This document shows, piece after piece, positions 2,442 through 5,808 of a stretch of DNA of 64,000 bases. Positions within the stretch are counted from its first letter, which is position 1. The number at the start of each line of letters is the position of its first letter. The stretch lies in the NCBI GenBank assembly GCA_020054495.1, contig JAHWGK010000010.1, positions 1-64,000 on the forward strand. The letters are read 5' to 3'. Under the pieces are notes generated by a model. That model did no database searches. It was not told where the DNA came from and was given only the letters and a program-made list of their open reading frames with translations. The translations under genes and the position numbers were made by a program. Source of the DNA: Thermoplasmata archaeon (lineage in GTDB: Archaea > Thermoplasmatota > E2 > DHVEG-1).

Positions 2442-2617
2442 GGCAATTTAAGGAATAATAAACCTTGAATAATAAAATTTTATATTTTTTTTATTTCTAA
2501 TAATTTGTATATGTTTTTTTAAAAGCTAATAGGGTGCTCCTTTTTCAGTATTATTTTAGCGTATTATTAGTATATTTATTTTCATTCTTTTTTATCTCAG
2601 AGAATTCTCTCCTTATA

Positions 2618-2758
2618 TGATTCACATATGACTCATATATGACTCATATATGAATCAAAAAAGTATCTGATACAAATCATATATATATCAAATATGAACT
2701 GTTTATGAGTCAAAAGATTTATAAATAAGTGATTCATATGTGATTCAGTGATGAGTTA
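2618..2758. promoter_or_regulatory. Phased TGANTCA operator array around the TATA box of the RHH gene
   Basis: Heptamers TGATTCA, TGACTCA, TGACTCA and TGAATCA start at 2618, 2629, 2640 and 2651, exactly 11 bp apart with 4-bp ATA-type spacers. TGAGTCA follows at 2706. TGATTCA, TGATTCA and TGAGTTA start at 2730, 2741 and 2752, again 11 bp apart. The TATA box TTTATAAATA (about 2718-2727) lies between the groups. RHH repressors typically bind short palindromic or direct-repeat subsites on one DNA face. The array lies directly before an RHH gene, so it is most likely the autoregulatory operator (inference). Confidence 0.8.
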
Positions 2759-2764
2759 GTAAGG

Positions 2765-2953
2765 ATGGGCAAAAGTCAGAGATTTCCTGTTGGTTTTCCT
2801 CCCATAATCAGGGAGATTATAAAACAACAAGTAGGTATTCTAGGGAATTCTGAGGCTGAAGTAGTCAAAAACATAGTTCTGATCTACATTACTGAAAAAG
2901 GACTCCTAAAGAAATTCAAATCCCAAAACAAAAAGGAGGGGAGGGAGAAATGA
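2765..2953 (+). CDS. Ribbon-helix-helix transcriptional regulator
   Basis: 62 residues. The layout is that of an RHH (CopG/MetJ/Arc-like) protein: a short strand QRFPVGFP (about 5-12), helix A (IIREIIKQQVGIL), a turn with Ser (GNSEAE), helix B (VVKNIVLIYITEKG), then a basic tail. The stop overlaps the ATG of the next gene in an ATGA arrangement (4 nt), so regulator and surface protein are translationally coupled. The TGANTCA array upstream is the obvious target. It probably represses its own operon and perhaps the neighbouring surface-protein genes. Confidence 0.85.
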   Translation: MGKSQRFPVGFPPIIREIIKQQVGILGNSEAEVVKNIVLIYITEKGLLKKFKSQNKKEGREK

Positions 2954-5190
2954 ACAGGAAAATAGGAGTCCAAATAATTGTGTTTATAACAGCATTCCTG
3001 TTTATATTTACAACTCTTTCCAACACAGTACATTCTATTCCTCCAGTAACCCAAGAAACTTTAATAGTTGATATTACTGGGAACGGAGACTATACAAGCA
3101 TACAAGAAGCTATCGATAATGCAGATGCAACTGATATTGTTTTAATACGAAACGGAATCTATAACGAGCATAGCATTGGCATAGGTAAAAAAATAGAAAT
3201 TATCGGGGAAGACCCCAGCAACACAATAATCAACTGCTCAGGTAATATTGCTCTAACCTTAAGCAGTGCATATGTGGATATAAGTAATATCCAAATAATC
3301 AACACAGAAGAATTTGCAATAACTACTCTACCTGGCAGCACTGGTTGTACTATATCCAATTGTATAATTAATACAAATTATAAGGGAGTTGCAATTGATA
3401 TCAGATCCTCATACAACACGATTTCTGATTGTAACTTAATTGGATTTGATACAAGTAAACAGGGTGTTAAGATACATGGATCTTATAATGTTGTTGAAAA
3501 TTGTGACATACAAAATTTCGCTAATGGAGTTCTAGTAATATTTGAATCAAGTAATAATCAGATTATAGGCTGTAATATTATAGACAATGAAAATGCTATC
3601 GACTTTAGGCTTGACTCCAACAACAACATAGTAACAGGTTGTAATATCTATTCCAATCTACAAAGCATAAAAATCTGGCAAGGCTCAAATTACAATCTTG
3701 TCTATCTAAACAACTTCTGGAAAAACGATATAAATACTATTGATGAAGGAAACAATTCTTGGGATAATGGAGCTAAAGGTAACTACTGGGACAAATACCA
3801 AGGACAAGACTCTAATGGTGATGGGATTGGAGATACGCCATATACACTATCTAGAGGAAATAACGATAGATTCCCAGTAATCTCTAGAATCCTCCCAGAT
3901 ATAGTAACAGCTCCAACTAGTGTAAGACACACCACTAGTAAATCAGACCACACACCTTCCTTTGCCTGGAATCCATCGATTTATAATAAAGGCCTAAGAG
4001 GATATTATGTAAAAATAGATACCAACTCTGAAATCTTTATTGGTGACACAACAAGTTGGACTTCGTCTGAGCCGCTTTCAGATGGTGTCCATATGTTTTA
4101 TGTGTGGGGAGTTGGTGAAGATAATACAACAAGTAGCTATTCTATTATTACATTTTCAATTGATACATCAATTATAGATACAGATGCAGATGGGTGGTCA
4201 GATGAAGATGAACAACAATATGGCACAGATCCAGACAATCCAGACAATTATCCATTAGATTCAGATGGTGACCATATACCAGACTCAGTTGATACAGATG
4301 ATGATAATGATGGTTACAGTGATGACATGGAGTCATCCTATGGAACAGATACAGCAAACTTGAACGATTATCCAACTGATACAGACAATGATGGTGTACC
4401 AGATGATGATTCCTCAGATGGAAAATATACAGGAGATGTAGATGATGATGGAGATGGTCTCACAGATATTGCTGAAGCTACACTTGGGTCTAGCTCAAAA
4501 ACTGGATCAGATGCTACTAAAATCTATATCGGCGGAAACTCATACTATCTTGTTGATGTATCTCAGGATAGTTACTATGATGTCCTATACGAGCCCACAA
4601 GTGGTACTATAACAGGAGTAGAAAAACACGGTGAGGACTACCTCCTAGATGTTGATGGAGACGGTACATCAGACCGTATATATAGTACATCAGATGGATC
4701 AGTATCTACATATGAAGAACAACTAACTTTGCCACTGGCCGTTTGGCTATTCATAATCCTAACAGTAATACTTGCTGCATTATTCATTATTCCAAAGTAT
4801 CTAAAACGCAGACCAATCAAATATAGAGCTCAAAGAAAGCCTGAGAGAATCATTAAAAGACCATTAACCGAGAAAATCTTAAGTATCTCTGCGGGTGATA
4901 AAAAAGATACAGTAGAAATGATTACTCAAACAAGGGCTCTGCTGCAACATATACAACAAGATGTAGAAGTATACATGGATAAACTCCATGAAATGGAACA
5001 ACAATTCACAGTAATGCATATAGATGAAAAAGAAGCAATAGTAAAGCCTCCCAAGGAAGAAGCAGTAACTACAGAGGAAAAAATAGAGCTCCCAGAGGAA
5101 AAAACAAGTGAGCTAGAAGAAACTCAGGGGGTAGAATCAAAAGTTGACAAACTCTTATCGCAATTGGATGATAAAGATAAAAACCAATAA
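2950..5190 (+). CDS. Surface beta-helix protein with calcium repeats, membrane helix and coiled-coil tail
   Basis: 746 residues. In order: signal peptide (about 1-30); NosD-like right-handed parallel beta-helix (about 35-300, DYTSIQEAIDNA followed by repeated N-x-I-x-x-C strands and the usual GNYWDKYQG end); an Ig/Fn3-like stretch (about 320-400); Asp-rich thrombospondin type 3 repeats (about 405-510, DTDADGWSDEDEQQYGTDPD type); a small domain; one membrane helix (about 595-615); then a roughly 130-residue cytoplasmic tail with predicted coiled coil (TRALLQHIQQDVEVYMDKL) and Glu/Lys-rich sequence. The strong GGAGG site before the ATG lies inside the RHH gene. The long cytoplasmic tail is unusual for a purely structural surface protein and might contact internal partners. 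Confidence 0.85.
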   Translation: MNRKIGVQIIVFITAFLFIFTTLSNTVHSIPPVTQETLIVDITGNGDYTSIQEAIDNADATDIVLIRNGIYNEHSIGIGKKIEIIGEDPSNTIINCSGNIALTLSSAYVDISNIQIINTEEFAITTLPGSTGCTISNCIINTNYKGVAIDIRSSYNTISDCNLIGFDTSKQGVKIHGSYNVVENCDIQNFANGVLVIFESSNNQIIGCNIIDNENAIDFRLDSNNNIVTGCNIYSNLQSIKIWQGSNYNLVYLNNFWKNDINTIDEGNNSWDNGAKGNYWDKYQGQDSNGDGIGDTPYTLSRGNNDRFPVISRILPDIVTAPTSVRHTTSKSDHTPSFAWNPSIYNKGLRGYYVKIDTNSEIFIGDTTSWTSSEPLSDGVHMFYVWGVGEDNTTSSYSIITFSIDTSIIDTDADGWSDEDEQQYGTDPDNPDNYPLDSDGDHIPDSVDTDDDNDGYSDDMESSYGTDTANLNDYPTDTDNDGVPDDDSSDGKYTGDVDDDGDGLTDIAEATLGSSSKTGSDATKIYIGGNSYYLVDVSQDSYYDVLYEPTSGTITGVEKHGEDYLLDVDGDGTSDRIYSTSDGSVSTYEEQLTLPLAVWLFIILTVILAALFIIPKYLKRRPIKYRAQRKPERIIKRPLTEKILSISAGDKKDTVEMITQTRALLQHIQQDVEVYMDKLHEMEQQFTVMHIDEKEAIVKPPKEEAVTTEEKIELPEEKTSELEETQGVESKVDKLLSQLDDKDKNQ

Positions 5191-5208: not shown

Positions 5209-5808
5209 ATGAAAAAAACATTTGTTCTGACATTGATAATCTTAATTTCATTGATGTTACCATGTTGCTGTAAAGGAGCTATGTCAGTTCATCCTCTAGA
5301 ACTTTGGATTACAATGGACGACGAGTTCATAAATGGTAATGCTTCGAAAAAAATAATGGTAAAAAACAACGATGACTTCAGCGTTAACTTCACATGGTAT
5401 CTTGATCATCCTGATCCATCCATGATTAGACCCAATAAAACATCTATTCTTGATTTATCCTGGGTTGATATAGAACCAAAATGGCGTATTGCCCAACCAG
5501 GCGATACTGTATCGTTTTATATCCATTTAGATATTCCAGAGAGTGAAGAGTATCTGAGTCAACATTGGGAGATATGGCCTACATTTAAACAAAACAAAAG
5601 CCAAGGTATGTTTCCCTTCGAGCAAGCTGTTAGATTGTACATAAATACTCCTACTGAATTAATAACTAACAGCAATCAAGGTTCCGATTCTTTATCGATT
5701 GTTATTGGAGATAAAATCAAGATACCATTGTTTGATGTTGCTATTGTAGCAATTATAATACTTCTGCTCATCATTGGTCTGATAGTAATAAAAAAGAAAA
5801 AATTATAA
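5209..5808 (+). CDS. Ig-like single-pass membrane protein (second paralogue)
   Basis: 199 residues from the ATG at 5209 (a TTG two codons upstream is an alternative). It has a signal peptide with a CCC cluster near residues 20-22, so a lipid-modified N-terminus is conceivable although no clean lipobox is seen. One beta-sandwich ectodomain is followed by a membrane helix (about 173-193) and a KKKKL tail. It is homologous to the protein at 1836-2441. It lies 18 nt after the beta-helix gene and is probably the last gene of the RHH operon. Confidence 0.8.
   Translation: MKKTFVLTLIILISLMLPCCCKGAMSVHPLELWITMDDEFINGNASKKIMVKNNDDFSVNFTWYLDHPDPSMIRPNKTSILDLSWVDIEPKWRIAQPGDTVSFYIHLDIPESEEYLSQHWEIWPTFKQNKSQGMFPFEQAVRLYINTPTELITNSNQGSDSLSIVIGDKIKIPLFDVAIVAIIILLLIIGLIVIKKKKL

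Follow-up and report, generated by a model that had tools for sequence, protein, structure and literature searches.

Autorepression is a known property of the RHH proteins CopG and ParD. Among archaeal representatives, F55 of the virus SSV1 is an experimentally studied small RHH autorepressor with tandem-repeat sites at its own and at other promoters (PMC5569661). For the RHH autoregulators SvtR (SIRV1) and AvtR (AFV6), it has been proposed that occupation starts at strong distal sites and spreads over degenerate sites in the direction of the promoter, and AvtR both activates and represses (PMC5569661). In the omega/ParB system of pSM19035, RHH dimers occupy contiguous heptamers (PMC9499535). 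We found nothing closer than F55, SvtR, and AvtR in the literature on archaeal RHH autoregulators of this kind. The locus analyzed here lies in a stretch of 64,000 nucleotides (the window) from a Thermoplasmatota MAG related to, among others, archaeon SG8-52-3, and a preliminary description had reported palindromic TGANTCA heptamers in two 11-bp runs surrounding the TATA box of a gene for a 62-residue RHH protein.

A pattern scan of the 64-kb window placed seven exact TGANTCA heptamers before this gene, starting at 2618, 2629, 2640, 2651, 2706, 2730, and 2741. The first four (2618..2657), which are putative operators without strand orientation like all those that follow, are spaced at exactly 11 bp. 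The interval from 2651 to 2706 is 55 bp, or five periods, and the positions between are filled by four degenerate in-register copies (2662..2701; 2662 AGTATCT, 2673 CAAATCA, 2684 TATATCA, and 2695 TGAACTG), which are probably low-affinity sites. The putative operator TGAGTCA at 2706..2712 is exact again and forms the last upstream register, abutting the 5' side of the TATA box, so that the upstream block comprises nine registers at 11 bp (2618-2712), four of them degenerate, and stops just before this element. The TATA box itself (TTTATAAATA, 2718..2727, + strand, read from the sequence) fills the one gap in the array, 24 bp from 2706 to 2730, after which the series continues with the putative downstream operators 2730 TGATTCA, 2741 TGATTCA, and 2752 TGAGTTA (2730..2758). 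The last of these retains five of the six fixed bases of TGANTCA, and the second exact 11-bp run (2730-2752) therefore consists of two exact copies and one near copy, next to the four copies of the first (2618-2651). Both the two runs and their position on either side of the TATA box are as reported previously, and the array is larger than first described. That account did not include the degenerate copies that keep the register, the conservation of phase from one side of the TATA box to the other, or the wider clade discussed below. The downstream operators are expected to overlie the transcription start, and the leader of the RHH transcript should be ~15 nt, judging from the position of the TATA box.

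One register 5' of the first operator lies a boundary element (CTCTCCTTATA, 2607..2617, + strand) with the family form TTCTCCTTAWG, the sequence of which is unlike the operators. In 10 of the 16 genomes compared below, CTCC lies at position -9 relative to the first TGANTCA, and in two more it is nearby, against a background of 1.6% of 22-bp windows, and the element was located at the matching place in 12 of the collected loci. Reading CTCCTT as a minus-strand Shine-Dalgarno sequence was rejected by eye, as no start codon lies at a suitable distance.

The segment 2600-2764 contains 7 sites and 4 exact 11-bp pairs. When its sequence was shuffled 5000 times with dinucleotide composition preserved, the averages were 0.33 sites and 0.0006 pairs (maxima of 3 sites and 1 pair). 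TGANTCA per se is not enriched in the 64-kb window (37 observed vs. 32 expected); thus, the unusual feature is the arrangement, without an excess of the heptamer itself. The same holds at the scale of the 2.72-Mb genome, where an exact pair scan found TGANTCA-N4-TGANTCA nowhere else and no other place lies within one mismatch of TGANTCA-YATR-TGANTCA. With two mismatches allowed there are four further places, all at two mismatches, vs. two for the reversed control pattern. The preliminary description had proposed a scan for 11-bp TGANTCA pairs and had named occurrence at many unrelated sites as the observation that would speak against an operator. The scan places such pairs solely at the RHH promoter in this genome, and the array does not recur elsewhere. 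A regulon wider than the RHH operon was rejected, since the genome holds no second site pair, exact or with one mismatch, and the putative regulon is one operon.

The first gene of this operon (2765..2953, + strand) encodes a 62-aa predicted RHH-fold regulator, recognized from its ORF, its orthologs, and its predicted fold. In the AlphaFold model (pLDDT 83), helices 13-22 and 30-60 take up the RHH arrangement, and the best structural neighbours are mostly RHH proteins, namely ParD, CopG, NikR, and AtaR (Z 4-5.7). The protein fits the RHH strand-helix-helix fold of about 45 residues, with the strand unresolved in the single-chain model and weak Foldseek E-values; poor values are usual at such a size, so the fold match is support, short of proof. 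The model thus supports an RHH-like fold. Pfam and NCBIfam RHH models matched none of the 18 members of the family, and we found no solved structures related by sequence. The RHH identity given in the preliminary description is therefore borne out by the fold neighbours and not by the curated family models. The absent curated match appears to mark an undescribed sequence branch, and the definition of the fold does not require one. A comparison with relatives, which have R-Q-S, suggests that the conserved N-terminal R6-x-P8-x-G10 supplies the residues of the ribbon that face outward. A viral origin of the gene was rejected, as the viral contigs encoded no close RHH relative. The members found were distant ones, namely one that is viral, another from a Methanobacteriales virus, and a third carried by a Methanothrix plasmid.

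Orthologs of the 62-aa protein occur in 16 genomes within its family or order (window genome counted), with 61-87% identity to the window protein, and exact 11-bp TGANTCA pairs occur at the RHH promoter in all 16. Together these promoters hold 73 exact sites and 31 exact pairs, vs. 3.4 and 0.001 in shuffles. Stray pairs were found in 11 of 129 other genomes, none with a YATR linker (Fisher p = 1.7e-14 for co-occurrence of gene and pairs), and 31 of the 32 pairs in RHH-bearing genomes are located at the RHH promoter. This retention in every orthologous promoter and the near-exclusive co-occurrence agree with the earlier assignment of the array to the RHH gene as its operator. The promoters share a common plan, [TTCTCCTTAWG][TGANTCA-YATR]n - TATA - [TGANTCA-YATR-TGANTCA] - start codon, with sites on both flanks of the TATA box and extending to the start region in nearly all of them. 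The upstream block varies from two or three up to 11 registers, and genome G038 keeps at minimum TGAAT or TGATT in eight consecutive registers. Non-canonical in-register heptamers in the promoters of the relatives score 3.3/6 vs. 1.1-2.3 at ten other phases. The YATR linker is found in 30 of the 31 pairs. The centre base of the heptamer is free (T33 A29 C7 G4), and adjacent copies share it in 16 of 31 pairs and differ in 15; with centre bases this variable and neighbours often unlike, the arrays are not fresh repeat copies. In three genomes, the RHH gene itself is tandemly duplicated inside the operon in two or three copies (G008, L016/L040; G011, L017/L041; G019, L044); the array precedes the first copy, which looks degenerate in G019.

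The phase across the TATA box is also conserved. Between the closest exact site on the upstream side and the first site downstream, the spacing equals 1 or 2 modulo 11 in all 16 promoters, a count for which the downstream site was picked by eye, with 5/6 matches in a few genomes, and in which G046 with its long gap carries little weight. Thus, the TATA box fills the place of a single register with 1-2 bp to spare, and this slip points to two blocks instead of one uninterrupted filament. In most relatives, the downstream pair is located at -21/-10 from the ATG and a TATA-like element at about -31 to -33. This implies a leaderless transcript, which in turn would place both downstream sites between the TATA box and the start point in most relatives.

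With sites, period, phase across the TATA box, conservation, co-occurrence, and gene order observed or computed as above, together with the RHH-like fold prediction, we consider it highly probable that the array is the operator through which RHH dimers cooperatively repress their own three-gene operon. Proximity and co-occurrence point to the adjacent RHH protein as the binder of TGANTCA, the geometry suggests cooperative binding along one face, and we infer repression instead of activation. The two-stranded ribbon of an RHH dimer would enter the major groove at each TGANTCA, and as the sites recur every 11 bp, or about one helical turn, adjacent dimers are proposed to stack along nearly the same face. 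The strong sites would be the exact copies at the far 5' end and beside the start codon, with the degenerate in-register sites between them filling up as the protein level rises. A filled upstream block would mask the TATA box on its TFB side, a filled downstream block would mask the transcription start, and occupation of both would shut out TBP, TFB, and RNA polymerase. With its promoter blocked in this way, the RHH protein would restrict how much is made of itself and of the surface protein encoded behind it.

The array might alternatively serve a dual regulator similar to AvtR, with the upstream block recruiting TBP/TFB and thereby activating at low protein levels, and the filling of the downstream block repressing at high levels. 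The blocks flank the TATA box and differ in site quality, AvtR sets a precedent for one protein doing both, and in distant members of the clade the sites are found mainly between the TATA box and the start, which makes the upstream block an addition that needs a reason. However, we saw no sign of activation, and the sites adjacent to the TATA box leave TFB little room once the array is filled; we therefore regard dual regulation as unlikely. It is very unlikely that the TGANTCA sites belong to another cellular DNA-binding protein. The conserved boundary element CTCCTT beside the array suggests that a second factor may act here, but the sites and the RHH gene occur together in 16 of 16 genomes, the regulon is a single locus, and fellow clade members have differently spelled 11-bp sites before their own genes. 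A minisatellite formed by 11-bp slippage without a regulatory role would account for the variation in copy number between genomes, yet it is largely refuted by conservation and was rejected in view of the conserved arms with their variable centre base, found at the same promoter in 16 genomes with a phase of 1 or 2 across the TATA box in each, which leaves it with a negligible probability. Tandem sites adjoining the gene of an RHH protein could also point to a ParB-like RHH protein of the pSM19035 type that acts on a centromere or on replication iterons. This reading is scarcely credible given that no ParA-like gene was recognized among the neighbouring ORFs read, that the contigs of relatives are very long and chromosomal, and that the sites straddle a TATA box with a surface protein as the downstream partner.

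This partner is a 746-aa secreted protein of the NosD/right-handed beta-helix type according to Pfam (2950..5190, + strand), the gene of which shares 4 bp with the end of the RHH gene. The protein contains acidic TSP3-like Ca-binding repeats, a single TM segment around residues 596-622, and a C-terminal cytoplasmic tail of ~120 aa, consistent with the surface protein with a long tail noted earlier in the operon. A ParD-like toxin-antitoxin operon was rejected because the gene directly downstream encodes this protein and not a small toxin. Close orthologs of the beta-helix protein are found in 12 other genomes at 49-63% identity, plus two partial ones, and only in RHH-bearing genomes, directly 3' of the RHH gene where the contig allows; in G011, the contig ends after the RHH gene and a partial beta-helix copy is located on another contig. 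The tail is poorly conserved apart from a helix (DTVEMITQTRALLQHIQQDVEVYMDKL, residues 653-680, window 4906-4990) and a C-terminal VDxLLS, which could possibly form a contact for a partner. The mean identity of the helix is about 0.6, no higher than in the outer domains. This gives no positive indication that the tail sequesters the RHH protein, and the idea was rejected.

A gene for a ~198-aa secreted, membrane-anchored protein with a predicted Ig-like fold (5212..5808, + strand) is likely the third gene of the operon. Its predicted fold resembles fimbrial chaperones and MSP domains (TM about 0.45), and an upstream paralog (1836-2441) is also membrane-anchored and Ig-like. The genes upstream of the array (207-2441) have a conserved order and no TGANTCA pair of their own. 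Together with 5212-5808 they form a conserved surface cluster, seen also at L035, L039, and L043. It encodes a PKD-type protein, the two paralogous Ig-like proteins, and either one or two secreted proteins of ~180 aa (ITFDPDGDIDIDV), and it may be a locus for the assembly of surface fibres.

Profile searches in the phylum revealed second-type homologs (RVQVSF...WLAEKSFIS) and a few others; a single-sequence search reached G090 at E 2e-6, and the remaining links were made by profile search. In 11 promoters of this distant clade, the summed longest match at lag 11 reached z 9 to 11 (other lags ≤4), a test that is not fully independent because two cases had been spotted by eye beforehand. Lag 11 was the single best lag in 8 of the 11, and 45 other window promoters used as a control gave no signal. 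These distant promoters contain no TGANTCA pairs and no long upstream array, and their sites are spelled in different letters (GTGT-type, ACTAAGA in four copies, GATATA, ATTACA, and CATATAG). Shared with the window system are a homologous protein and 11-bp sites between the TATA box and the start codon. Three members were added later: lag 11 was recovered in a viral contig (13-base match) and in plasmid pH6Ac, and virus vir323 failed. A search across the order of G377 yielded one weak extra member without a clear array.

Nine distant members are encoded directly before a DNA methyltransferase gene, five recognized by Pfam, two by a TSPPYP motif, and two by record annotation. These partner enzymes include C5, N4/N6, and Eco57I-like types and are located on chromosomes, the Methanothrix plasmid, and the Methanobacteriales virus. 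The RVQVSF-type sister proteins are probable methyltransferase control proteins, as judged from this gene order. Tentatively, and with a little less than even confidence, we suggest that the clade of small RHH proteins represents a portable self-repression cassette, in which the 11-bp spacing and the placement near the TATA box are fixed, and the operator letters and the partner gene, a DNA methyltransferase or a surface protein, are exchanged. The ribbon residues may then correspond to the operators, with R-P-G going with TGANTCA, R-Q-S/T with GTGT, and R-M-G with ACTAAGA. If true, the clade would provide a natural series of mutually orthogonal repressors. A clade that keeps its geometry and differs in its letters offers a route to how RHH ribbon residues choose a DNA sequence, and to how a repressor could change its operator without losing autoregulation. 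Beyond this, long, helically phased arrays in which site quality is graded, from a lineage of uncultured archaea, represent a testable case of cooperative RHH assembly on a promoter that is eukaryote-like in its use of TATA/TBP/TFB.

Compared with generic RHH genes of the same phylum, the 11-bp period is distinctive: it is absent from 26 PF01402 RHH promoters, many of which lean to 22 bp. In a set of NikR-like RHH genes (PF01402; L153-L182), GTGCTAC-type repeats about 22 bp apart precede the gene. The likeness to CopG, NikR, and ParD is in the shared fold. The omega/ParB system differs in its 7-bp period, its role in partition with ParA, and its location on a bacterial plasmid. SvtR and AvtR are viral, with a non-tandem, imperfect inverted-repeat consensus, and AvtR is a two-RHH monomer; still, the anatomy of the array fits the autorepression model that has been put forward for RHH proteins of archaeal viruses (PMC5569661). 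The closest layout is that of F55. The T6 TATA box of SSV1 is flanked by two pairs of GATAGAG-type repeats (5727/5738 and 5766/5777), each with an 11-bp spacing, so the layout of the array has an experimentally studied counterpart, and the view that this arrangement was known for other RHH repressors proved correct. Both systems have tandem sites 11 bp apart around the TATA box of their own promoter, but F55 matches PF01402 and the window protein does not, and a profile comparison gave no significant homology (probability 0.6%). By analogy, the window protein would be F55-like in its working and lies outside the F55 sequence family. With the two proteins in different RHH sequence families, either this layout is of ancient origin among RHH regulators acting on TATA promoters, or it evolved on two occasions. 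The F55 operator (ATAGATAGAGT) occurs in pairs only and at several viral promoters, whereas the window system has palindromic TGANTCA sites at one chromosomal promoter, with up to 11 upstream registers. Thus, the kind of device is already known, with SSV1 F55 as the precedent for its layout; new within the reach of our searches are the operator sequence, as the preliminary description had proposed, the length of the array, its dedication to a single chromosomal surface operon, and a clade in which the spacing is fixed and the letters change.
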